Origin: Alphaproteobacteria bacterium
GTDB taxonomy: Bacteria > Pseudomonadota > Alphaproteobacteria > SMXP01
Assembly (NCBI GenBank): GCA_028285305.1
Contig: JANQPV010000075.1
Location: 62,001 to 126,000, forward strand
Length of the DNA stretch: 64,000 nt
Direction of reading: 5' to 3'
The notes below the pieces were generated by a model. It saw nothing but the letters and a program-made list of their open reading frames with translations. It was not told the DNA's origin and ran no database searches. A program made the translations under genes and the position numbers. Positions within the stretch are counted from its first letter, which is position 1. The number at the start of each line of letters is the position of its first letter. Positions 9,464-30,802 of the stretch are shown here, piece by piece.

Positions 9464-10348
9464 ATGCCTGAATTGCCCGAAGTGGAAACTGTCTGCCGTG
9501 GACTGGCCCCTGCCTTGGTTCAGCGCCGGATTGTGCGTGTGAACCAACGGCGGCCCGATCTCAGGATTCCGTTTCCCGTTGGATTTACGCAGCGTCTGTC
9601 GGGTCGAAAAGTGCTCTCTCTCACGCGCCGGGCGAAGTACATTCTGGTCCATATTGAGGGGGATTTGACTCTCATCATTCACTTAGGCATGTCCGGCAGG
9701 ATAACAATCCATCCCCCCTTTGAGACGGCGATCTCGCCGGGTCGGTTCCATCACAACGTCGGGAAAGCGCGTGCCCCGAGGGAATGGGGCCCGCACGATC
9801 ACGTGATCTTCGAATTAGATGATGGAACCCTCATCGTTTACTCAGATCACCGCCGTTTTGGATTGATGACACTCGCCCAAACCGGTGAATTAAACTCCCA
9901 TGCCTTGCTGGCCAATGTCGGGGTCGAGCCTTTGGGCTCCCAATTAACACCTGAATTTCTGTCCGCGAAATTAAAAGACAAGAAATCGCCCATAAAAGCG
10001 TCGCTTTTGGATCAACGAATAATAGCCGGACTGGGAAATATCTACGTATGCGAAGCGCTCTTTTACGCCGGCATCTCACCGCGTCGGCAAAGCGGCACAG
10101 TGCCGGGAGCGCGGGCAAAACGATTGGTTGATGCGATCGGCCAGGTTCTTCGGGCGGCGATCCAAGCGGGCGGATCATCGCTGAGAGATTATGCGCATGC
10201 GGATGGAGAGTTGGGGTATTTTCAGCATCAATTTGCCGTATACGATCGCGAAGGCGAAACGTGCAAAGCACCGCGCTGCGACAACACGATCCAGCGCATC
10301 GTGCAATCAGGTCGGTCCACCTTCTTTTGTTCAAAGTGTCAGCGTTAG
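9464..10348 (+). CDS. mutM: Formamidopyrimidine-DNA glycosylase (Fpg/MutM)
   Basis: Bifunctional DNA glycosylase / AP lyase that removes 8-oxoguanine and formamidopyrimidines. The N-terminal PELPEVE supplies the catalytic Pro and Glu. The helix-two-turn-helix (LLDQRIIAGLGNIYVCEAL) and the C-terminal four-Cys zinc finger (CKAPRC ... FFCSKC) are complete. 294 residues, usual length. It is the first plus-strand gene of the dnaA region. Confidence 0.97.
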   Translation: MPELPEVETVCRGLAPALVQRRIVRVNQRRPDLRIPFPVGFTQRLSGRKVLSLTRRAKYILVHIEGDLTLIIHLGMSGRITIHPPFETAISPGRFHHNVGKARAPREWGPHDHVIFELDDGTLIVYSDHRRFGLMTLAQTGELNSHALLANVGVEPLGSQLTPEFLSAKLKDKKSPIKASLLDQRIIAGLGNIYVCEALFYAGISPRRQSGTVPGARAKRLVDAIGQVLRAAIQAGGSSLRDYAHADGELGYFQHQFAVYDREGETCKAPRCDNTIQRIVQSGRSTFFCSKCQR

Positions 10349-10461
10349 AGCGCGTGTAAGTGGCCACTGACCCCACTTGACCTGCCGCGGTTTCGGGCCT
10401 ATTCCCCACGCTCAGTTTCCCGTCGGTTCACCGGCTTTCCTAATCAAAACTGAGGGTTTCC

Positions 10462-11238
10462 ATGGCCTACAACACGCTGCTCGTCGATATCGAAGGTCCT
10501 GTAGGACTGATCACGCTCAATCGTCCTGAAGCGCTCAATGCGCTCAACGGCGAGTTAATGGACGAATTGACGGAAGCGATCGACAAATTGGAAGCGGACA
10601 CCTCCATCGGCTGCCTTGTGATCACGGGGTCCGCCAAGGCGTTTGCCGCCGGTGCCGATATCAAGGAAATGCAGCCCAAATCCTATATGGACGTTTACAA
10701 GGAAGACTTCATCACGGCCAATTGGGAACGGGTGACACGCTGCCGGAAACCCGTCATTGCGGCTGTTGCGGGCTTCGCCTTAGGCGGCGGCTGCGAACTC
10801 GCAATGATGTGCGATTTCATCCTCGCGGCCGACACCGCCAAATTCGGCCAGCCGGAGATTAACTTGGGCGTAATCCCTGGCTCGGGCGGCACCCAGCGCC
10901 TTACGCGCTTTGTCGGAAAGTCGAAAGCTATGGAGATGTGCCTGACCGGCCGAATGATGGACGCCGAAGAGGCGGAGCGATCCGGACTGGTTAGCCGTAT
11001 CGTGCCCGCAGACGACCTCAAATCAGAAGCCCTGAAAGTGGCAAACAAGATCTGTGAGCTATCGCAACCCGCGACCATGATGGTGAAAGAGGCCGTCAAC
11101 CGCGCGTACGAAACCACCATGACCGAGGGTGTCCGCTTTGAAAGGCGCCTGTTCCACTCAACCTTTGCGCTCGACGACAAGGCCGAAGGCATGGCGGCTT
11201 TTGTTGAGAAGCGCAAACCGCATTTTAAGCATCAATAG
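10462..11238 (+). CDS. Enoyl-CoA hydratase
   Basis: 258-residue crotonase-family enzyme that hydrates trans-2-enoyl-CoA. The oxyanion-hole segment ([11 protein letters not shown]), the glycine-rich [14 protein letters not shown] with one catalytic Glu, and [10 protein letters not shown] with the second acidic region are all intact, and the C-terminus is the canonical [10 protein letters not shown] short-chain hydratase between mutM and rpsT is a recurrent feature of alphaproteobacterial dnaA regions. Substrate chain length cannot be told. Confidence 0.93.
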
Positions 11239-11358
11239 AGCGGCTATATAGGCACCGATATTTCTTGACGAATTTGTAACGTAGGTGTACGAGACCCGCT
11301 TTAAATTCCTCTGCAAATTGTTTGACGCATCCGCTGAAAGAAAGAGCGAGCCTTCAAT

Positions 11359-11643
11359 ATGGCCAACACGAAATCTGCAAAAAAAGCGATCCGCAAGATG
11401 ACGCGCCAGACTGAAGTAAATAAGTCGCGGCGGTCCCGGATCCGTACCTTTGTCCGCAAGGTGGAGGAGGCGATCATTGCAGGTGACGCAGAAGGCGCCA
11501 AGGCTGCGCTCAACGAGGCCCAGCCCGAAATAATGAGGGGCGCCACCAAAGGCGTGATTCACAAAAATACGGCGTCTCGGAAGATTTCCCGCTTGTCTAA
11601 GCGGGTGCACGAGATGAAAATCAATCCAAACTACGTACGCTAA
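11359..11643 (+). CDS. rpsT: 30S ribosomal protein S20
   Basis: 94 residues, highly basic and helical: the family start [13 protein letters not shown] and the late [16 protein letters not shown] are unmistakable. S20 binds the 5' and 3' minor domains of 16S rRNA. A weak promoter-like TTGACG lies at 11265-11270, with a poor -10 (TACGAG) 17 bases further on. rpsT just upstream of dnaA is a frequent alphaproteobacterial arrangement. Confidence 0.98.
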
Positions 11644-12108
11644 CTCTATTGAGCGGCAGTTTATCGCGGGCCTTGAGTTTGCGAGCGGAAAAAATTCCGC
11701 AAGCTGACCAAAAGAACTATGTCCGCACACGTGCTATAGCCGTTCGTCGCGGGTTCTTTCGGCCTCTGTGACAAAGGCCAGCATTTCGCTAAGGAATTGC
11801 GCGCTTCCCAAGAGTCAAGCCATCTGAATGTGAATCTTTTTTGTAATCCAGGTGTCATTCTTTCTTGATCTTTGTTCTTCTCAGTGTATTCTCCATTCCC
11901 GTAGCGAGCAATCAGGTCTTCGAAGAGTTTGAGTAAGTCAGCAAGATTAAGTTGGTACAAAGAAGGCGCCAAACTCGTTATAAATTCTCTGTTTGGGACA
12001 TTCTGTCCTCGGACTACCCGATAAGCTTTTTGAGATTTGTCTGACGGGAGAGTATTCCTTCTCCCAAGGGCGGCGGAGTGCGTGTAGTTTGAGGCAGGTT
12101 TTATTGGG
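11644..12108. other. 465-bp intergenic region rpsT-rhodanese
   Basis: No convincing gene. A small palindrome (GCGGAA-AAAA-TTCCGC, 11685-11700) follows rpsT without a T-run. The segment 11820-12000 is noticeably T-rich compared with its neighbours and probably holds the promoters for the rhodanese and dnaA. I looked for DnaA boxes (TTATNCACA and its complement) and found none, so there is no support for placing oriC here. Confidence 0.5.
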
Positions 12109-12588
12109 GTGAAGTGCGTGTCGTCCAAGGACTCTGGTACATCGCAAGATGCTGGCGGCCCTGCTTACGCGGGTGACGTTTCGGTCGAAAAGGCATGGGA
12201 AATGTTAAAATCAGATCCCAACTGTCTTCTCGTTGATACGCGCACGCAGAGCGAATGGGCTTATGTTGGTGTGCCAGATTTGTCTGAGCTGGGTAAAGAT
12301 CCCATCTTGATCGAATGGCAGTCATTTCCGACAATGCAAGTAAACGAAACGTTTACGGATCAACTGGCTGAGATAGTGGCGGAGAAAAAGCTTCCGAAGA
12401 CGGCACCTATACTATTTATTTGCCGCTCGGGCGCAAGATCGAGATCTGCAGCGATTGCCTCTACGGCAGCGGGGCATCCCGCGTCGTACAATGTTGATCA
12501 CGGTGTCGAAGGTGACCTCGACGAGCGCTTCCACCGCAATTCCGTAAATGGTTGGAAGTTTTCCGGCCTCCCGTGGAAACAGAGTTAA
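12109..12588 (+). CDS. Rhodanese-like sulfurtransferase domain protein
   Basis: 159 residues, single rhodanese domain. The active-site loop FICRSGARSRSAA contains the persulfide-forming Cys; LLVDTRTQSEWAYVGVP is the CH2A-type signature. The start is a GTG at 12109, or more likely GTG 12118, which has GGGG about 8 bases before it. It lies between rpsT and dnaA, separated from dnaA by its own hairpin at 12598-12622. It could deliver sulfur for thiolation (tRNA, molybdopterin) or act in redox sensing; nothing here decides. Confidence 0.88.
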   Translation: MKCVSSKDSGTSQDAGGPAYAGDVSVEKAWEMLKSDPNCLLVDTRTQSEWAYVGVPDLSELGKDPILIEWQSFPTMQVNETFTDQLAEIVAEKKLPKTAPILFICRSGARSRSAAIASTAAGHPASYNVDHGVEGDLDERFHRNSVNGWKFSGLPWKQS

Positions 12589-12597
12589 CCTACCTAT

Positions 12598-12622
12598 CCC
12601 GGCCGTCCGGCCGGGGCCTTTT
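12598..12622 (+). terminator. Rho-independent terminator after the rhodanese gene
   Basis: CCCGGCCG, a 2-base loop, CGGCCGGG, then GCCTTTT. The stem is a perfect 8 bp and begins 10 bases after the rhodanese stop codon. It separates that gene from dnaA. Confidence 0.75.
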
Positions 12623-12677
12623 GAAAATACTCAAAAATCAAATGTTCACGTACGAACTAAAAAGGGTAAATGGACTA

Positions 12678-14168
12678 ATGCGGCTTATCGACGAAAACCA
12701 ATCTATTGATTTGAACGGAAATTCAACAACCGGCGAGCATTTCATTGCATGGTCGAGAGCAAAGAAACGGTTGGAAACCAAACTCGGCCAAAGTGTCTTT
12801 AACCGATGGATCAATCCGCTCGAACTTGAAGGTGTAAACCAAGGGTGCGCAACGTTTCGCGCACCCGGTGAATATGTTCGTTACTATGTAGATACGCACT
12901 ATCGCGATCAAATCCGGCAAAGCCTGAAGAGCGAAATAACCTCAATCACTCAAATTCGTTTGCGTGCCGTGCTGGAAGCGACCCGTTCGGGCGAACAGAG
13001 CGAGGCGAAGCCGAACACATCGGTAGCGATCGGACCTGCGCGGGTTTCGGCAGAACCCCGCCAATCTGTCGCGGAGCCCGCGCCACTTGCCGGTGGGTCT
13101 GGCGACGATTCCGGAATGAAAGTCATCCTGCCCCGGACGAAGACATTTGAGAATTTTGTCGTGGGACAGTCGAACAAGATCGCCTTCCTAGCGGCTAAAC
13201 GATTTGTTGAGGCACCGACACAGGCATTGAACCCGCTGTACATTTACGGAAAGGTTGGAACTGGTAAGAGTCATCTGGCCAAAGCAATCTCAGTTGCAGC
13301 CCACGCTCAAGATCCTGGTGGCAATGTCGTTTATCTGTCTGCAGAGCGTTTCATGTATCACTTTGTGCGCTCGCTTAAGGACAGGAATACGCTGGCCTTT
13401 AAGGACGCATTGCGTGATGTGTCCGTGCTTGTGTTGGATGATGTCGGTTTCATTGGAAACAAGGCGACGACTCGCGAGGAGTTCTTTCATACGCTTGACG
13501 TTCTGCTCTCGGAAGGCCGGCGGATCGTATGTTGTGCGGATGTTCCGCCCTCGCGCCTAGAAGGGATGGGAGAGCGCATTGTGTCGAGACTGGGTCAGGG
13601 AACGGTTGTGGGCATCGAAGCCCCCGATTTCGAGCTCCGCCGAAACATACTCAAAGCCAAGTTGGAAGCGGCAAGTGCCGAAAATGGCCTGCACGTGCGT
13701 TTAAGCGATCAGCTGCTGGATTTCATGGCATCAAACCTGAATGACAACGTTCGGACCCTTGAAGGGGCGGTCAACCGCATCCTGTCGCACACAGGCTCTC
13801 ACGCGGGCGATGGGACCGAAATCACAGTAGACGTTTTAAAGTCTCAGATCATCAGCGACCTTTTGCAAACGCGTAAGCCGGTTCTGACGATCAAAGAGAT
13901 TCAAAAATGTGTCGCCGACTATTTTGGTCTCCAAGTGTCGGACCTTTGCTCGAAGCGCCGAACCAAGGACGTTGTCAAAGCAAGGCATCTGGCCATGTTT
14001 ATCATCCGCAAGGAAACGACCAAATCCTATCCCCAAATTGCGATGAAGTTCGGGAAAATGGACCACACGAGCATTTTGCACGCGGTGCGCAAAATGGAGG
14101 CACTGAGCGAAACGGATCACGAAATCTGTGAACACATCGAGGCCATTCGGCGCAAGCTTGGCCTCTGA
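12678..14168 (+). CDS. dnaA: Chromosomal replication initiator protein DnaA
   Basis: AAA+ ATPase that melts the replication origin. Domain III has Walker A (GKVGTGKSHL), Walker B (VLVLDDVGFI) and sensor regions. Domain IV carries the DNA-binding signature KARHLAMFIIRKETTKSYPQ and DHTSILHA, which read the DnaA box. The domain I helix (WSRAKKRLETKLGQSVFNRWI) and a variable linker rich in Pro/Ser/Ala precede them. About 496 residues from the ATG at 12678 (MRLIDENQS); an in-frame ATG at 12642 is possible, and neither has a strong ribosome site, so initiation may be weak. Followed by a strong hairpin at 14197-14224. Confidence 0.97.
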   Translation: MRLIDENQSIDLNGNSTTGEHFIAWSRAKKRLETKLGQSVFNRWINPLELEGVNQGCATFRAPGEYVRYYVDTHYRDQIRQSLKSEITSITQIRLRAVLEATRSGEQSEAKPNTSVAIGPARVSAEPRQSVAEPAPLAGGSGDDSGMKVILPRTKTFENFVVGQSNKIAFLAAKRFVEAPTQALNPLYIYGKVGTGKSHLAKAISVAAHAQDPGGNVVYLSAERFMYHFVRSLKDRNTLAFKDALRDVSVLVLDDVGFIGNKATTREEFFHTLDVLLSEGRRIVCCADVPPSRLEGMGERIVSRLGQGTVVGIEAPDFELRRNILKAKLEAASAENGLHVRLSDQLLDFMASNLNDNVRTLEGAVNRILSHTGSHAGDGTEITVDVLKSQIISDLLQTRKPVLTIKEIQKCVADYFGLQVSDLCSKRRTKDVVKARHLAMFIIRKETTKSYPQIAMKFGKMDHTSILHAVRKMEALSETDHEICEHIEAIRRKLGL

Positions 14169-14196
14169 CGCACAACCAAGCAGATGACGGCAGTCG

Positions 14197-14224
14197 GGGC
14201 CGGAAGAGAATTCTCTTCCGGCCC
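14197..14224 (+). terminator. 28-bp perfect palindrome downstream of dnaA
   Basis: GGGCCGGAAGAGAA immediately followed by its exact complement, then GTTGTTTT. It lies 28 bases after the dnaA stop codon. It should act as a dnaA terminator, although the T-tract is interrupted. Confidence 0.7.
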
Positions 14225-14416
14225 GTTGTTTTGCGCGTTTCACATATTATTCTACTGGAACTATTGATTCCTGCCTAAACGCAGGTAACGTGACAGACCG
14301 CCCATCTCGGTTCTCCTCGGGCGGGCCATCGCGAACGTTGAGACAAGACTCAACGCGCCGCGAGAGTGAGACCCGGGGCTGCCCCGTGCGTCATTACGGA
14401 CCCAAGAGCGCGAGCT

Positions 14417-15541
14417 ATGAAAACTGCCATTGATCGAGAAGTCCTCTACAAAGCCCTAAACCACGTTCAAAGTGTGGTCGAACGCCGAACAACCATCCCC
14501 GTGCTAAGCAATCTGTTGGTGGAAACGCTGTCTGATGGAATGCGCCTCACGGCAACGGATTTGGATATGGAGGTGGTTGAAACCGTCGACACGATGGTGT
14601 TTTCGAACGGCGTGACGACGATACCGGCCCACACTCTGTTCGATGTTGTGCGCAAATTGCCTGAAGGCGCGCAAGTAGAGTTGGATTTCGACGCCGCAAA
14701 AATGCAAATGCAGCTTTCGTCCGGCCGCTCCCGGTTTAGCTTGCCGTGCCTCAGCGCTGACGATTTTCCATCTCTGGCACAGAGCGACTTTGACCATCAT
14801 TTCGAGATGCCGGCCAAAGATATAGTCCGGATGATTGACGGCACCAAGTTCGCCATTTCGACCGAAGAAACGCGGTACTATCTCAACGGCATTCATCTTC
14901 ACGCGCACGAGGAAGATGGAAAAAGCCTGTTGCGCGCCGTTGCAACGGATGGCCACAGGCTCGCGCGTGTGCAATTGCCATTGCCTGAAGGGGCATCGGC
15001 AATACCGCCGGTCATCGTTCCGCGCAAAACAATCACGGAGTTACGCCGTCTCCTTGAAAACGAAGACGAAAAGATTCAGCTCGCCGTTTCGGAAAACAAG
15101 ATCCAGTTCCGTGTCGGTTCGACTATCCTCACCTCTAAGCTGATCGACGGAAACTTTCCCGATTACGAGCGCGTTATTCCTGTTGGAAACGACAAGATGC
15201 TCAAACTGGATCGCCCGACTTTTGCGAGCGCAGTGGATCGCGTATCCACAATATCGACGGAAAAGTCGAGAGCGGTGAAGATGATTTTGAGCGGCTCAAC
15301 CCTAACGCTCTCTGTGAACAATCCTGAAAGCGGAAGCGCCACGGACGAACTGCCGGTTGTCTACGAGGCGGACGATTTGGAGATTGGCTTTAACGCCCGT
15401 TATGTACTGGACGTCATGTCCCAGATAGCCGGCGAAACGGCGCGGTTTGAGCTGTCCGATCAATCCTCCCCGACCATTATCCTGGACGATGAGGATGAGT
15501 CTCAGTCGGCGCTGTATGTTCTCATGCCGATGCGGGTCTAA
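14417..15541 (+). CDS. dnaN: DNA polymerase III beta subunit (sliding clamp)
   Basis: 374 residues from the ATG at 14417 (MKTAIDREVLYKAL), the conserved start of this family; the open frame extends to 14366 but the extra residues are unlike any clamp. Three structurally similar domains can be followed: VVERRTTIPVLSNLLVE in domain I, FAISTEETRYYLNGI in domain II, and the C-terminal Y-V-LMPMR(V) that ends every beta clamp. It tethers Pol III to DNA. Confidence 0.97.
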   Translation: MKTAIDREVLYKALNHVQSVVERRTTIPVLSNLLVETLSDGMRLTATDLDMEVVETVDTMVFSNGVTTIPAHTLFDVVRKLPEGAQVELDFDAAKMQMQLSSGRSRFSLPCLSADDFPSLAQSDFDHHFEMPAKDIVRMIDGTKFAISTEETRYYLNGIHLHAHEEDGKSLLRAVATDGHRLARVQLPLPEGASAIPPVIVPRKTITELRRLLENEDEKIQLAVSENKIQFRVGSTILTSKLIDGNFPDYERVIPVGNDKMLKLDRPTFASAVDRVSTISTEKSRAVKMILSGSTLTLSVNNPESGSATDELPVVYEADDLEIGFNARYVLDVMSQIAGETARFELSDQSSPTIILDDEDESQSALYVLMPMRV

Positions 15542-15601
15542 ACCGGCAGGCATCGCTTCGCAGCGCAGCGCGCGGCGAAATCACTGCTCTAAAACTAATC
15601 C

Positions 15602-19217
<3,616 letters not shown>

Positions 19218-25579: not shown

Positions 25580-26662
25580 ATGGCACACGATCAGCAAGAG
25601 CTATTTGAACATCGAAGTCACCGCTACATCGATTGCGAAACATCCTCTGAGGCGACGAGAATTGTTGAGATTGAAGGTAAGTCGCTTACGACAACGCCAG
25701 TATTCGAAGCCTATTGGCGCTTTGCGGAAAAGCGCCAGAAGATTTTTTTCAAGCGGGTCAAAGGCGCCAATGATCCGGACCTAACTGACGATCCGATACT
25801 GTCGGAATATCGATTCACCAACGCCTATCGCGCGTCCGATCGCGTGAGTCAGTACCTTCTTCGTGAAGTCATATGGAGCAGTGGCCAAGGTTGGACCGAT
25901 CAAGACTATTTCTACCGCACGCTCCTTTTCAAACTGTTCAACCGGCCCAACACTTGGGAAGCACTTGAAAAGGAACTCGGTACCCTTAGTTGGAGCACGT
26001 ATGATTTCGACGCCTTGGACGGCCTCTTGAATGCGCGACAAGCTGCAGGCGAACGAAACTATTCGGCAGCCTATATAATGCCGTCGGCGGGTGCGGTATT
26101 CGGGCACAAGAGTAAACACGCCAACCATCTTCGCCTCTTAGAATGGATGATAAGCGAGCGTTATCCGCAGCGGCTTAAAACCTGTCGCAATATGGGCGAA
26201 GCGTTTGAGCTCCTTTTGGCGGCTCCATCTATTGGGCCATTCCTTGCATATCAATTCGCGACAGACCTCAACTATGGACCGCTGACGTCTTTTTCGGAGA
26301 TGGAATTTGTCAAGGCTGGTCCTGGAGCACTGGACGGTGTTTCCAAATGCTTCGTTTCAACAGAAGGCGTTTCGGCCGAAGGGATAATTAAGCATTTTGC
26401 TGATTTTCAGGAAGACTACTTCGACGCTTTCGAGATCGATTTTTCAGACTTGTGGGGACGACCGCTTCAACTGATCGACTGCCAGAACGTGTTCTGCGAG
26501 ATTTCCAAATACTCGCGAGTCGCATTTCCCGATATCCAGGGAAAGTCTGGACGCTCGCGTATCAAGCAGAAATTCGCGCCTGCTGGACGGCTCCCTGCGC
26601 CGTTCTACCCGCCGGAATGGGGACTCAACGACAAGATCGGGGATAATGCGTCAGCAAACTAA
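25580..26662 (+). CDS. DNA-glycosylase-fold protein of the HMUDK_hel / aGPT-pyrophosphorylase type
   Basis: About 360 residues from the ATG at 25580 (AGGG about 7 bases upstream). Wholly helical core with the segments FTNAYRASDRVSQYLL (about 77-92), FYRTLLFKLFNRPNTWEAL (about 113-131) and, later, SIGPFLAYQFATDLNYGPLTSF. These match what I know of the helical domain of 5-hydroxymethyldeoxyuridine DNA kinases and the related alpha-glutamyl/putrescinyl-thymine pyrophosphorylases, families predicted to act on hypermodified thymine. No P-loop kinase domain is attached. Codon use is more AT-rich than the neighbours, suggesting transfer. It converges, with a 4-base overlap, on a MazG_C/Nmad2 operon of related predicted function. 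Family assignment is from pattern memory only. Confidence 0.6.
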   Translation: MAHDQQELFEHRSHRYIDCETSSEATRIVEIEGKSLTTTPVFEAYWRFAEKRQKIFFKRVKGANDPDLTDDPILSEYRFTNAYRASDRVSQYLLREVIWSSGQGWTDQDYFYRTLLFKLFNRPNTWEALEKELGTLSWSTYDFDALDGLLNARQAAGERNYSAAYIMPSAGAVFGHKSKHANHLRLLEWMISERYPQRLKTCRNMGEAFELLLAAPSIGPFLAYQFATDLNYGPLTSFSEMEFVKAGPGALDGVSKCFVSTEGVSAEGIIKHFADFQEDYFDAFEIDFSDLWGRPLQLIDCQNVFCEISKYSRVAFPDIQGKSGRSRIKQKFAPAGRLPAPFYPPEWGLNDKIGDNASAN

Positions 26663-27975
26663 CTGCTGGAATCAGATGGTCTGAAATCGAGCTTTCGATT
26701 CACGAGATCGACGGTCACGAAGCCGCCGCGATGCTGCTTGAGCAGATCAAAGACGCGATACCCTTCGCGTATTGCGCGTGCCCATTCCCAGTATTTGTTG
26801 TCATAGACTTCGTGACCGATGGTAAGCTCGCGGACCTGCTTGAGAAGCGAAAAAGGGATCTCTTCGCCATCGGGGAAAAGCGGCCGGTCATATGCCGTAA
26901 TGTCACCATGTAGTTCCTTGGCGCGCCGCGCAGCTTCCCAGTGAATGAACTTGACCACCAGCTCTTCCACAACGGCCGACCTGCCGCCGTCTTGCTCTAG
27001 CTTGGTCTTGCCCTCGCGCTTGATCGCGAAAAGATCCCGCAAGACGGGCGACCATCCCAATACCGCGACATTTGCCAGATGGATGACATCGTGGAACCGG
27101 TAGCCGTCTTCGATCGAGTATTGATCACGTAGCGGGTCGCCGCGGCGCTCGCCCTCCCAGTAGATTTCGACCGTCTCCGAATCCACTGAGCGAAACTCGA
27201 CATCGAAGCTGCGTGGAAACTGCTGTCTGGAAGGCACATTAGCATCGTGGAGTGGAGTTGGTTTCCGATCGTTTTGCCGTGCGCTGGCCTTCTCCATATT
27301 TTTCTCACCGACATCGTCCATATCAATGTCGTACAACGAAGCGATTGCGCACAGGTGCCAGGCGATTTCGCCCAAGACTACGCCAATCGGGCGATCCTTG
27401 AGCTGCTTGTTCAGCTCTTTTTCAATCTTCGGAAGGAGGTGACGCATCAACTGTGCCGCCAACTGCGTTAGCACGGCAGCACAAACCTGTAAAAGGACGT
27501 GTCGCTCTGTGCGCGCCGTCTTAATCGCAAGTCGTTGATAGTCGGATAATGTCGGGTGAGAAGCCGACTTGAACTGCTCGGCCCCGTCCAGAAAATCCTG
27601 AACGTCTTCCGGCGTTAGAATTTCACGAATTCGCGCACCACGCTGGCTCGGATCGGTCACTTCCGTTTGCAAGTGCTCTATGTCGGAAACGAGGACATCA
27701 GGGCTGTCTCCAGAATCCTCGATGCGTGCTAGAGCGAAGGCATACCACATTGCGTCGCCGAGTTCTTCTTGCAGTTCGAGCCTAGCGAGCGGCGAGGACA
27801 AAGCGCCCCCTTCATTCAGCCATTCCTTTTTTATTGCGGAGATGACGGAGCCGATTTCGCTGGCTAGACCGAAAATCGCAATCTCACGCGGGTTTGCGGC
27901 GTTTCCATCGCTTTCTTGCTTGGCGGAGAACTGGTCGGTCCGCGCTACAAATGCGGCGTATTTCTTGATCAGCAT
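26659..27975 (-). CDS. MazG-like nucleoside triphosphate pyrophosphohydrolase with MazG_C domain
   Basis: 438 residues. The N-terminal part has a MazG-type helix pair (GLASEIGSVISAIKKEW ... LELQEELGDAMWYAFALARI) with the acidic EE..D metal ligands. A second such helix (VLGEIAWHLCAIASLYDIDMDDVGEKNMEKA) lies near 195-230. From about 255 a MazG_C-like domain follows (FPRSFDVEF ... DGYRFHDVIHLANVAVLGWSPVLRDLF). It should hydrolyse (d)NTPs to NMP and pyrophosphate, which in this setting could clear a modified or invading nucleotide. It overlaps the Nmad2-like gene by 7 bases and is the last gene of a three-gene operon. Confidence 0.72.
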   Translation of the reverse strand: MLIKKYAAFVARTDQFSAKQESDGNAANPREIAIFGLASEIGSVISAIKKEWLNEGGALSSPLARLELQEELGDAMWYAFALARIEDSGDSPDVLVSDIEHLQTEVTDPSQRGARIREILTPEDVQDFLDGAEQFKSASHPTLSDYQRLAIKTARTERHVLLQVCAAVLTQLAAQLMRHLLPKIEKELNKQLKDRPIGVVLGEIAWHLCAIASLYDIDMDDVGEKNMEKASARQNDRKPTPLHDANVPSRQQFPRSFDVEFRSVDSETVEIYWEGERRGDPLRDQYSIEDGYRFHDVIHLANVAVLGWSPVLRDLFAIKREGKTKLEQDGGRSAVVEELVVKFIHWEAARRAKELHGDITAYDRPLFPDGEEIPFSLLKQVRELTIGHEVYDNKYWEWARAIREGYRVFDLLKQHRGGFVTVDLVNRKLDFRPSDSSS

Positions 27976-28634
27976 GCTGACACCTTCGGAGCAATCAGCT
28001 GGCGAAGTTTCTTGTCGTGCATCCAGTCTGCTGGATCATGTAGCAACCCGCGGTCAGGAAGGCTTCGCAGCCAAGCGATAAAATCCTCCTTCAAGGACTC
28101 GTCGTCGACTTTGTATTCATGGCCGCGCCCGGTCTTGATGAGTGCGGAGTATTCTTCGGGTGGTCGTGGGCCATTCGACCCCCAATAGGCATACTCCCGG
28201 CCGATCAGCACCTTGTCGGTTGTCGCCGTGTCGCGGCGAAGATTTCCTTCACCGATGAGACTGTTCGGGTCGCTGTGAAAGGACGGTTCCTGAATCCAGT
28301 CGCCGTTGAACGGATGCTGATGGTAGATGTTGTCGCCGTAACTCATCATAAGTGAGCCGCCCATTTTCGGGCGTTTGTTGCGAAACAGCGGGTTGCGCCA
28401 GTACGCGTCGAAATGGGTGATCTCATCGACCAGCATCCAGTAGATGACTTGGCCACTCAGATCGTGCTTGGCGGGGCCATATCCCACGATCACATCACCA
28501 GGCTCAGCATACTGTCGGATCTGAGGCTTACAGCAAGCAAGCGTACAGACCTTAAAAAACGGATTGGGCGCGAATCCCTTGTCATGATCGATGACATACC
28601 GATAGAGGCGTCGTGGACGGTTACTCGCATTCAT
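27969..28634 (-). CDS. Nucleotide-modification-associated domain protein (Nmad2-like)
   Basis: About 221 residues from the ATG at 28634; the frame extends to 28661. The N-terminal signature YRYVIDHDKGFAPNPF, then CTLACCKPQIRQYAEPGDVIVG, is that of the Nmad2 family, which was defined by its association with base-modification operons. The biochemical role of Nmad2 is not known. The Cys-Cys-Lys-Pro and the conserved Asp and Asn residues suggest nucleotide handling. Overlaps both neighbours (14 bases upstream, 7 downstream), so stoichiometric co-expression is likely. Confidence 0.65.
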   Translation of the reverse strand: MNASNRPRRLYRYVIDHDKGFAPNPFFKVCTLACCKPQIRQYAEPGDVIVGYGPAKHDLSGQVIYWMLVDEITHFDAYWRNPLFRNKRPKMGGSLMMSYGDNIYHQHPFNGDWIQEPSFHSDPNSLIGEGNLRRDTATTDKVLIGREYAYWGSNGPRPPEEYSALIKTGRGHEYKVDDESLKEDFIAWLRSLPDRGLLHDPADWMHDKKLRQLIAPKVSAC

Positions 28635-29067
28635 GGGGATCAATCTCATTCGGATCGGCACCCTCGCCAGCCGGGGTCAAGAAGGCGTTTTCGCAGTCGG
28701 AACCGAGTTCGCCTTTGACCTTTTCAGCATCCCAAGGCACTTGGGCCGTGCAGTATTTCGCTGCGGCGGGGTGAATGCCGGTTTGCGCTTGATCGGGTGC
28801 CCAGATCCCGACAATATTGCAGACGCCTTCCTTTGCGCCGGCGAAGGCGACTGCATCCAGTAGCGCGCTATCGCCAGCATCATCGTGCAGGATCATCACG
28901 ATAGCATCGGACGACATGATGCCGTCCAGGTCGCCTGCACCGCCGACAAACTTCACCGCTCCAAGGTCAATCTCTGCGGATGAGAGCAGTTTGAGGACGT
29001 CGATTTCAGGCACCGACTTACCTTCTGCTTGCGCCACAAAGACACGGCGCTGATCATTCTGGTGCAT
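28621..29067 (-). CDS. Unidentified Rossmann-like protein, first gene of the MazG_C/Nmad2 operon
   Basis: 148 residues, start at 29067 with AGGAG 8-9 bases upstream. Strand-helix alternation with RVFVAQAEG at the N-terminus, DAIVMILHDDAGDSALLDAVAFAGAKEG in the middle and NIVGIWAP resembles the layout of TIR-like or nucleoside-deoxyribosyltransferase-like folds, where a strand ending in a small loop is followed by a helix bearing a catalytic acid. I cannot identify the family or a certain catalytic Glu. The C-terminal 30 residues are acidic and probably disordered. Position suggests it works with the Nmad2 and MazG_C proteins. Confidence 0.55.
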   Translation of the reverse strand: MHQNDQRRVFVAQAEGKSVPEIDVLKLLSSAEIDLGAVKFVGGAGDLDGIMSSDAIVMILHDDAGDSALLDAVAFAGAKEGVCNIVGIWAPDQAQTGIHPAAAKYCTAQVPWDAEKVKGELGSDCENAFLTPAGEGADPNEIDPHECE

Positions 29068-29241: not shown

Positions 29242-30465
29242 TTACGAAGCCTCCTCAAAATGCGGGCGCACCTCATTGGTGCCTACGAATTGTGAGAGAA
29301 GCCGATAATTTCCGGTTTCCCGCCGCACCCTTCCGGCCACAATGGCCGGATGGACGTTCACCAATTGTGCAAAGGCAATGACACGCGAGGGCGTTGCTGC
29401 TTTCAGCAGCTCGGCCGCATCCCAGTCTTCCGACGGAATGAGCGCTTCCTGGGCAAGCGTATCCGCCTCGTCTTCGATCAACCAGTCTTCTGAATGATCC
29501 GAGCGGTTCAGTTTCAGGTCGTCGACGAAGAAAGCGCCTTCTTCATTCAGATGCCGCCACACATGGGCGGTCTCGTGCAGAAGGCAGAACCAGAAATTAT
29601 CGAGCCGGTCATAGCGGAGGGTAAGTCCGATCACAGGCACGCCTTCTTTTGTACGCATGGCTGCGCCATCGAGATGCGTTTTCGGAAGATGCCTGGCATA
29701 GACGACGGCGACGCCCTGCTGTTCAAGCGCTTCGACGGCGCGGTTCGGGCCGTCTGGCAAGCGGCTCAGCGTGGCGAGAAATCGGAGAAACTCGGCATCG
29801 ATGGCGCCTTCGCGATAGGTCGACTCCAGTGCCCGTTCCCGCGCCGTCGCAAGGACGTGGAGGCACCATGCCTGTAACGCATATGGGTCCATGCGCGCGT
29901 TCTGGCGTGCCGCATCATTCTTGCGATAAAGCGCCTGCGGGACGGAATCGTGCCCGCCGGCCCGCTCGATTAGATCGCTCATCAGGTCTTCGGCCGCCTC
30001 GGCTACATTGCGGACAGTCGGCAGCCACCGGCGTTTCACCAGCTCCCGCACGGGAAAACGTCCCCATTGGATATGATCAGTCTCAGCGTCGAAATCAGTC
30101 ACGGTCGTGTCACCGATCAGCACCTCGGCAGGAATGCCGAGGTGTGCGTTAAGTGCACGGATCATTTTCAGGGTCAACGTGCGTTTGCCGGACAGCACTT
30201 CGGAGACTTTAGCTCGGCTGCCGATATAGGGCACAAGGTCAGCCTGACTGAGATCAGCCTGCTCCATCCGGAACTGAATTGCCTCGATGGGAGTTGGTAG
30301 GTCGATCGGATAGTGCTCGTCTTCATAGACTTCGACTAGCGTGGTCAGCACATCAAGTTCGTCACGTTCCGGGCTGCCATCCGGTGCGTCCATGAGACAG
30401 TCGATACGAGCAAGTGCAGCGTCGTAATCGGTCTCATCTCGAATCGGGCGTACTGTGCTCATCAT
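29242..30465 (-). CDS. higA: HigA-type antitoxin fused to an ImmA/IrrE metallopeptidase domain
   Basis: 407 residues. The N-terminal third holds an XRE/HigA helix-turn-helix (IQFRMEQADLSQADLVPYIGSRAKVSEVLSGKRTLTLKMIRAL). The C-terminal half is an ImmA/IrrE (DUF955) zinc-peptidase-like domain with HETAH in WFCLLHETAHVWRH. Its start overlaps the stop of higB (ATATGATG), the usual toxin-first order of higBA. The HTH should autoregulate the promoter at 30763-30802. The peptidase domain could make antitoxin stability or release signal-dependent; that is inference. Confidence 0.88.
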   Translation of the reverse strand: MMSTVRPIRDETDYDAALARIDCLMDAPDGSPERDELDVLTTLVEVYEDEHYPIDLPTPIEAIQFRMEQADLSQADLVPYIGSRAKVSEVLSGKRTLTLKMIRALNAHLGIPAEVLIGDTTVTDFDAETDHIQWGRFPVRELVKRRWLPTVRNVAEAAEDLMSDLIERAGGHDSVPQALYRKNDAARQNARMDPYALQAWCLHVLATARERALESTYREGAIDAEFLRFLATLSRLPDGPNRAVEALEQQGVAVVYARHLPKTHLDGAAMRTKEGVPVIGLTLRYDRLDNFWFCLLHETAHVWRHLNEEGAFFVDDLKLNRSDHSEDWLIEDEADTLAQEALIPSEDWDAAELLKAATPSRVIAFAQLVNVHPAIVAGRVRRETGNYRLLSQFVGTNEVRPHFEEAS

Positions 30466-30749
30466 ATCTCCTCCACATCGATCTTATCGCAGTCGGCATG
30501 GGTGCCAATGAACCTGATGAAGATGATGCCTGCGCTATAGTCGATCCGAACCACGAGCCTGTACTTGTTGCCCGCAATGTTGAAAACGACGCGGTTGTTT
30601 CCAACGATGCTGGCGTGGCGGTACTTCTCCTCGATGTCGTTCGGCGTTTTCCAGTCAGCCTTTCTTGCTTCGTGATACCAAGCGTCGAGCACGGCAACGG
30701 TATTGGTATCGCTGAACTCGCGAAGTGTCCGCCGTGCAATTATGCGCAT
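30462..30749 (-). CDS. higB: HigB-type mRNA interferase toxin
   Basis: 95 residues of the RelE-superfamily HigB_toxin type. The start MRIIARRTLREF, KADWKTPNDIEEKY, VVFNIAGNKYRLVV and the terminal FIRFIGTHADCDKID are hallmark segments, including the late His that takes part in ribosome-dependent mRNA cleavage. The family tail is usually THxxYDxI; here the Tyr position is Cys (HADCDKI). Start at 30749 with GGAGG 6 bases upstream. It overlaps higA by 4 bases. Confidence 0.9.
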   Translation of the reverse strand: MRIIARRTLREFSDTNTVAVLDAWYHEARKADWKTPNDIEEKYRHASIVGNNRVVFNIAGNKYRLVVRIDYSAGIIFIRFIGTHADCDKIDVEEI

Positions 30750-30762
30750 CCGACGCCTCCAT

Positions 30763-30802
30763 ATATTACCCATATTGGGATCATTGTCAAGTGATCCCAT
30801 AT
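30763..30802 (-). promoter_or_regulatory. higBA promoter with overlapping operator
   Basis: On the minus strand a consensus -35 TTGACA (30785-30790) is followed 16 bases on by TAATAT (30763-30768), 14 bases before the higB start. An inverted repeat of TATTGGGATCA and TGATCCCATA (30772-30802) flanks and overlaps the -35 and spacer. Bound HigA would block RNA polymerase, the standard toxin-antitoxin autorepression. Confidence 0.75.

Follow-up and report, generated by a model that had tools for sequence, protein, structure and literature searches.

Gene content of the cassette

We analysed a 64,000-nucleotide stretch of an alphaproteobacterial chromosome (hereafter the window; GenBank assembly GCA_028285305.1, contig JANQPV010000075.1, positions 62,001 to 126,000), in which a compact cassette, genes A to F, combines the protein families HMUDK_hel, MazG_C and Nmad2. 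Gene A (25580-26662, plus strand) encodes a 360-amino-acid HMUDK_hel protein (PF18723), a predicted base-flipping DNA enzyme with no P-loop kinase. The other five genes lie on the minus strand: B (26659-27975) encodes a 438-amino-acid MazG plus MazG_C protein (PF03819 and PF18722); C (27969-28661) a 230-amino-acid Nmad2 protein (PF18753), whose PUA-like model makes it a candidate reader of modified bases; and D (28621-29067) a degenerate TIR-like protein of the ThsB type, as judged by hhalign profile comparison. E and F precede D-C-B in the same direction. All six open reading frames (ORFs) are intact. The 3' ends of A and B converge and share 4 nucleotides (26659-26662, a feature to which no strand applies), B and C overlap by 7 nucleotides, and C and D by up to 41, depending on the start chosen for C. 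The ORF coordinates thus bear out the four genes, the converging overlap and the overlapping B-C-D series described in a first-pass annotation of this DNA. Parasphingopyxis (locus L028; L numbers denote related loci) has the identical genes, arranged alike (A, B, C, D, the E homologue, HigB), with 70%, 66% and 64% identity for A, C and D, respectively.

Protein A matched PF18723 over the entire profile (positions 1-281 of 281) with 321 bits, above the curated cut-off, which confirms its assignment to HMUDK_hel. The additional label of an aGPT-pyrophosphorylase-like protein found no support in Pfam, where the aGPT-Pplase models gave no match at an E-value of 1. We found no kinase match in Pfam and no Walker A motif in A, in line with the reported absence of a P-loop kinase for 5-hydroxymethyldeoxyuridine (5-hmdU); A does not have the marks of a 5-hmdU DNA kinase. 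Residues K256 and D300 are invariant. An AlphaFold2 model of A is confident (predicted local distance difference test [pLDDT] score 88.7), and its top Foldseek matches in the PDB were mostly HhH-GPD glycosylases of the OGG1/AlkA type, at non-significant E-values of about 0.8 to 3.6; the model weakly suggests a glycosylase fold. Sequence searches of the PDB with A and with Nmad2 returned no relative.

Both domains of protein B scored above their Pfam cut-offs (MazG, 31.6 bits against a cut-off of 22; MazG_C, 174 bits), as the first-pass annotation had proposed. A second, degenerate MazG-like repeat appears to be present in B, whose profile matched structures of the dCTP pyrophosphatase 1 type (E 1e-3 to 2e-4). 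Three of the four metal ligands are kept (E40, E71, D74); the ExxE motif reads ExxS, and this serine is a feature of the clade to which the window belongs. The MazG_C domain contains an invariant RFHD..H segment.

Protein C matched Nmad2 with 196 bits, above the cut-off, so that its earlier naming holds. Its AlphaFold2 model (pLDDT 79.7, predicted TM-score 0.80) matched ASCH domains first in Foldseek (E 4e-4, probability 0.99). YTH and EVE domains came next, and the EVE matches included THYN1 with 5-methylcytosine DNA. The model gives moderate support for placing Nmad2 in the PUA-like (ASCH/YTH/EVE) superfamily. PUA-like domains are nucleic-acid readers, among them readers of modified bases.

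Protein D as a predicted degenerate TIR partner

Protein D had no match in Pfam or on plasmids, and its identity comes from context and profile-profile comparison. In PADLOC it received a weak ThsB/TIR-like score (E 5e-4). Directly 5' of close Nmad2 copies, relatives encode either a TIR protein (31 loci) or a degenerate TIR (12 loci), and the intact TIR partners match ThsB_TIR (PF08937) and solved ThsB structures. The D family aligned with these partners over 139 columns (hhalign probability 98.7%, E 2e-16), indicating that the fourth protein, described earlier as an unidentified Rossmann-like protein, is by its profile a degenerate TIR-like protein of the ThsB type. The glutamate of the WVNWE motif, present in 20/20 TIR partners, is alanine in D and in its Parasphingopyxis counterpart; other D-type proteins have Asp, Ser, Leu or Glu at this position, and the FISH..DD motif is lost in all of them. 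From these substitutions we infer that D is catalytically dead.

The loss of the TIR active site, together with recombinases and terminases beside related loci, might suggest that the cassette is a decaying remnant which a mobile element left behind on the chromosome and which has no present function. We consider this very improbable: none of the six ORFs is broken, C and D share 66% and 64% identity with their Parasphingopyxis counterparts, and degenerate TIRs recur as a class, at 12 loci, instead of being a single wreck. At two of the related loci (L013:9372-10787 and L237:6600-8789) a metallophosphoesterase gene lies between the D-type/Nmad2 pair and the MazG_C and uracil-DNA glycosylase (UDG) genes; with the TIR degenerate, its product is a possible substitute effector.

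Co-occurrence and exchange of modules

A genome scan with A as the query yielded 80 loci from many phyla, counted together with the window as 81. Among these, MazG_C was encoded at 65, a thymidylate synthase (TS)-like protein at 60, ImmA/IrrE at 55, an acyl carrier protein (ACP)-like protein at 50, AcpS at 40 and Nmad2 at 22. Because this sample had been chosen by A, we also searched 385 genomes of the class that were not selected by A. MazG_C was found in 12 of them, Nmad2 in 12 and HMUDK_hel in 7. With the window genome left out (384 genomes), HMUDK_hel and MazG_C shared 4 genomes (p 5e-6), and Nmad2 and MazG_C shared 7 (p 5e-10). At all 13 MazG_C loci examined in this set, a gene for HMUDK_hel or a UDG-family protein adjoins MazG_C, followed by either a TIR-Nmad2 pair or a set comprising helix-turn-helix (HTH), ImmA and TS-like genes, except that the contig of L190 was too short to assess the second part. 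Hence, the suggestion that these genes might prove unassociated elsewhere fails, and the association is confirmed in other genomes. The conserved order in Parasphingopyxis and the significant co-occurrence in the independent sample indicate that the cassette is not a chance assembly, and the recurring gene set supports the earlier proposal of one functional unit. A distant Nmad2 subgroup (about 118-136 bits; L183-L186) lacks MazG_C.

A UDG-family protein occupies A's place in roughly half of the MazG_C loci, and this substitution lends independent support to a base-flipping role for A. These UDG-family proteins (PF03167, with an HPSYGG motif) stand beside MazG_C at L178-L182, L190-L192, L012-L014, L026 and L237. 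HMUDK_hel also occurs in a differing context, between a DnaQ-type exonuclease and DnaE, on two sphingomonad plasmids (L019, L020).

The window groups with L028-L037 (support 1.00) in a tree of 67 A proteins. Members of this clade carry, by turns, a degenerate TIR, an intact TIR or an HTH-ImmA-TS module, and the TIR-Nmad2 association recurs in three separate parts of the tree, indicating modular exchange. The HTH-ImmA-TS-like set is sometimes extended by ACP and AcpS: at L038-L107 (for example, L051:7506-12318) an operon encodes an ACP-like protein, an Xre-type HTH protein, an ImmA/IrrE peptidase, a TS-like protein, HMUDK_hel, MazG_C and AcpS (PF01648). This operon is very widespread, occurring in Proteobacteria, Cyanobacteria, Planctomycetes, Chloroflexi and others, and we found no description of it in the literature, weak evidence given limited coverage. 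The ACP label derives from RefSeq names and one PF00550 match. The TS label goes back to RefSeq names and to a weak match at the profile level (Pfam E 0.04 for one protein, no match for the others tested), and we therefore call the enzyme TS-like only; compared with ThyA by hhalign it gave E 0.009 but a probability of 4.7%, with the catalytic cysteine in register.

Some loci (L038, L042, L046, L074) combine the TS-like and TIR-Nmad2 modules. These loci, and the company that a MazG nucleoside triphosphate (NTP) pyrophosphohydrolase keeps with TIR proteins, would fit nucleotide signalling as in the Kongming system, which links the dITP-binding KomB to the NAD-depleting KomC (PMC12948488): MazG-MazG_C would be a receptor for a base-modified nucleotide, would activate the TIR-like/Nmad2 effector, and the HTH-ImmA-TS type would make the signal. 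By contrast, the window version has no signal-making enzyme, D is without the TIR catalytic glutamate, and no ligand is known, making this account improbable for the cassette.

Distribution across plasmids, chromosomes and phages

The distribution of the system is sporadic, as the 12 MazG_C genomes among 385 illustrate. The system is present on many plasmids, and close relatives lie next to genes for a large serine recombinase and for ParB-like and terminase-like proteins (the last two by inspection of translations). We conclude from this carriage and these neighbours that the system is, in relatives, cargo of mobile elements. In the flanks of the 80 relatives, 105 proteins matched 145 PADLOC models (type I restriction-modification, Lamassu and others), compared with 3 models for a random control of 103 proteins, an enrichment that is inflated by redundant models. 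Relatives also carry genes for patatin phospholipases, SIR2, TIR-SLOG and ThsB_TIR. At L064:2405-4459 and eight other loci a TIR-SLOG (LD_cluster2) gene lies upstream of TIR-Nmad2-MazG_C-ThsB_TIR-HMUDK_hel sets, in some cases with type I restriction-modification genes alongside, and patatin phospholipases of the CBASS type adjoin TIR-Nmad2-MazG_C sets at L009:114-1103 and L238:61-1677.

These patterns bear on the idea of house-cleaning, in which MazG clears non-canonical dNTPs and HMUDK_hel or UDG excises the corresponding base from the DNA of the host, independently of phages. MazG is one of the all-alpha NTP pyrophosphohydrolases, B resembles dCTP pyrophosphatase 1, and UDG often stands in for A. 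A housekeeping function is, however, hard to reconcile with sporadic carriage on plasmids and mobile elements, with links to TIR, patatin, SIR2 and HigB genes, and with the replacement of one MazG metal ligand by serine in the window clade; we regard it as unlikely.

The first-pass annotation had described HMUDK_hel, MazG_C and Nmad2 as families found mostly in phages. This holds for HMUDK_hel, for which A matched 473 phage records (below 60% identity, the best at about 37%), but not for MazG_C or Nmad2, neither of which had a match in 50,697 phage records. Among 2.9 million viral contigs we found 6 strong MazG_C and 7 Nmad2 matches, several of them with isolate-genome identifiers. We therefore rejected a phage origin, and the proposed host-side role is supported.

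Phage relatives of HMUDK_hel do lie beside thymidylate synthase and glycosyltransferase genes, TS-like, ACP and AcpS genes accompany many bacterial relatives, and a gene for a methyltransferase or a radical SAM protein is present in addition at two plasmid relatives. These contexts suggest an alternative in which the cassette makes or installs modified thymine in host DNA as a mark of self, similar to phage thymidine hypermodification or bacterial 7-deazaguanine systems. The window cassette, by contrast, lacks genes for TS-like, kinase, transferase, ACP or AcpS proteins. A search of the genome found only the housekeeping ThyA, outside the cassette, consistent with the reported lack of a thymidylate-synthase-like hydroxymethylase. 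TIR-Nmad2 loci likewise do without those genes, and UDG replaces HMUDK_hel in many of them. Host DNA hypermodification is thus an unlikely function here, and the earlier title of a hypermodification cassette does not suit a version without any base-synthesis enzyme. Possible biosynthetic versions are the two plasmid loci, both beside TIR-Nmad2, in which HMUDK_hel accompanies thymidylate synthase and an O-methyltransferase (L024:5402-9053) or a radical SAM protein (L010:8656-10628).

Neighbouring genes and chromosomal setting

Gene E (29242-30465, minus strand) encodes an Xre HTH plus M78 (ImmA/IrrE) peptidase protein (PF06114) that matched PD-Lambda-2_B in PADLOC with 492 bits and has the M78 motif HETAH, an HExxH sequence at residue 297. 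Gene F (30462-30800, minus strand) encodes a toxin of the HigB/RelE type (PF09907, 106 bits) that matched PD-Lambda-2_A with 143 bits. The pair had been called higBA; a HigB-type toxin with an Xre partner is indeed present, but the two are the A and B components of PD-lambda-2. Of the PD-lambda-2 components, B was toxic on its own, an effect that A rescued (Vassallo et al., 2022; PMC9519451), so the killing partner in E/F cannot be assigned from the names. No PADLOC match to component C was found among the six cassette proteins or the 40 window proteins of at least about 190 amino acids, which leaves room for a shorter ORF elsewhere in the window. The HigB/Xre-ImmA module is adjacent in 5 of the 7 close loci that have HMUDK_hel and a degenerate TIR. 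The PD-lambda-2 B homologue stands beside D-type genes at 5 of 12 loci, compared with 0 of 31 intact-TIR loci (p 8e-4; the loci are partly related).

The cassette is located in an otherwise core chromosome, about 6 kb downstream of gyrB; by inspection of translations, the region at 9464-19217 holds fpg, an enoyl-CoA hydratase gene, dnaA, dnaN, recF and gyrB. Given these surroundings, and the lack of any other specific defence gene in the window, the suggested defence island is not supported here. Marks of an island at the cassette (aberrant composition, flanking repeats) gave nothing decisive, and in an empty-site comparison the relatives were too distant for synteny.

A predicted anti-phage role

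Many phages replace or decorate thymine and thereby escape restriction; to our knowledge, how bacteria sense thymine-modified phage DNA is largely open. We favour, with a probability of about 55%, the reading that the cassette belongs to a mobile, modular bacterial conflict system of the anti-phage type that senses abnormal bases or nucleotides of the thymine/uracil type. Detection of modified phage bases would be the most plausible role. In such a system A would inspect bases in DNA, MazG-MazG_C would hydrolyse or bind the nucleotide matching A's base, Nmad2 would recognise the modified base or nucleotide, and D would pass the Nmad2 signal on as an adaptor. The output in the window clade would be HigB, released or activated through the Xre-ImmA protein in place of TIR-made NAD signalling, and would halt translation in infected cells. 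A more specific version, which we advance tentatively and think doubtful in full, is abortive infection in which a PUA-like Nmad2 sensor and a dead TIR adaptor are coupled to killing by Xre-ImmA-gated HigB, this replacing TIR NAD chemistry on a platform of MazG_C and HMUDK_hel or UDG that elsewhere works with TS-like/ACP chemistry.

Several observations weigh against the conflict-system reading. The defence role of the cassette members is a prediction, and the argument for a modified-base trigger comes from the class of fold, the names of the families and the exchange between UDG and HMUDK_hel instead of from a ligand. In Foldseek, Nmad2 comes nearest to an ASCH ribonuclease, with low global TM-scores (0.3-0.45). 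The coupling of HigB and ImmA is deduced from adjacency within one clade, and the module is missing from L033 and L036, two of the seven HMUDK_hel loci with a degenerate TIR. To these points can be added the missing PD-lambda-2 component C, the solitary position of the cassette among core genes, the redundancy behind the PADLOC enrichment, and the relatives with TS-like, ACP and AcpS genes, which could indicate biosynthesis.

If the conflict-system reading is correct, a widespread, mobile host gene set would be a direct candidate for sensing thymine-modified phage DNA; it shares a protein family with phage hypermodification and adds a PUA-like reader and TIR or HigB effectors. Nmad2 and MazG_C, families without known function, gain a context, and Nmad2 also a modelled fold. 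The cassette further offers a testable case of a TIR that has apparently lost catalysis while its operon gained another toxin.

Relation to known systems

The DefensePredictor study (DeWeirdt, Mahoney & Laub, 2026; PMC13092281) lists MazG, MazG-C, NMAD and aGPT-Pplase domains in unvalidated predicted defence systems, credits these domains to Burroughs et al. (2015), and includes systems with 5-hmdU kinase and thymidylate synthase in its validated set. The general kind is thus already known as a prediction: MazG, MazG-C and NMAD are shared with the cassette in bacterial operons predicted to be anti-phage, and UDG also appears in the figure. What sets the window apart is HMUDK_hel together with a degenerate TIR-like partner and, as neighbour, a HigB/Xre-ImmA pair of the PD-lambda-2 type, an arrangement absent from the legend text. 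With the proviso of possible overlap with that study, we regard as new that HMUDK_hel and UDG exchange around MazG_C, that Nmad2 has a PUA-like model, that D is TIR-like with a decayed active site, that the cassette is linked to PD-lambda-2 A and B, and that an HTH-ImmA-TS-like-ACP-AcpS form co-exists with it.

With PD-lambda-2 the cassette shares the HigB-like A and Xre-peptidase B components (30800-29242), but in the window these are followed by D-C-B. With Thoeris (ThsA/ThsB) it shares, through the intact Nmad2 partners of relatives, similarity to ThsB_TIR and ThsB structures; however, there is no ThsA, and D lacks the catalytic glutamate and is similar at the profile level only. No Thoeris effector lies beside D, whose neighbours are Nmad2 and the PD-lambda-2 B homologue, and the cassette holds no SIR2-SLOG or macro gene. 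Kongming (PMC12948488) sets a precedent for base-modified nucleotides as immune signals, and by analogy the cassette may share the idea of a nucleotide-binding protein that detects a base-modified dNTP and switches on an effector that depletes NAD, although the MazG of the window is not HAM1-like and its TIR-like protein is not SIR2. Phage thymidine hypermodification operons (M6 and ViI type; the LuckyBarnes locus L027) share the HMUDK_hel family, whereas the cassette lacks a TS-like hydroxymethylase, kinase and transferase, and MazG_C and Nmad2 are absent from phages.

Minor features of related loci

In one metagenome-assembled genome (L035), Nmad2 and the B region lie within a single 774-amino-acid ORF, a possible fusion. 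All nine window-clade loci that have both ORFs retain a tail-to-tail overlap of A and B, over lengths of 4-95 nucleotides; the overlap may allow regulation by convergent transcripts.

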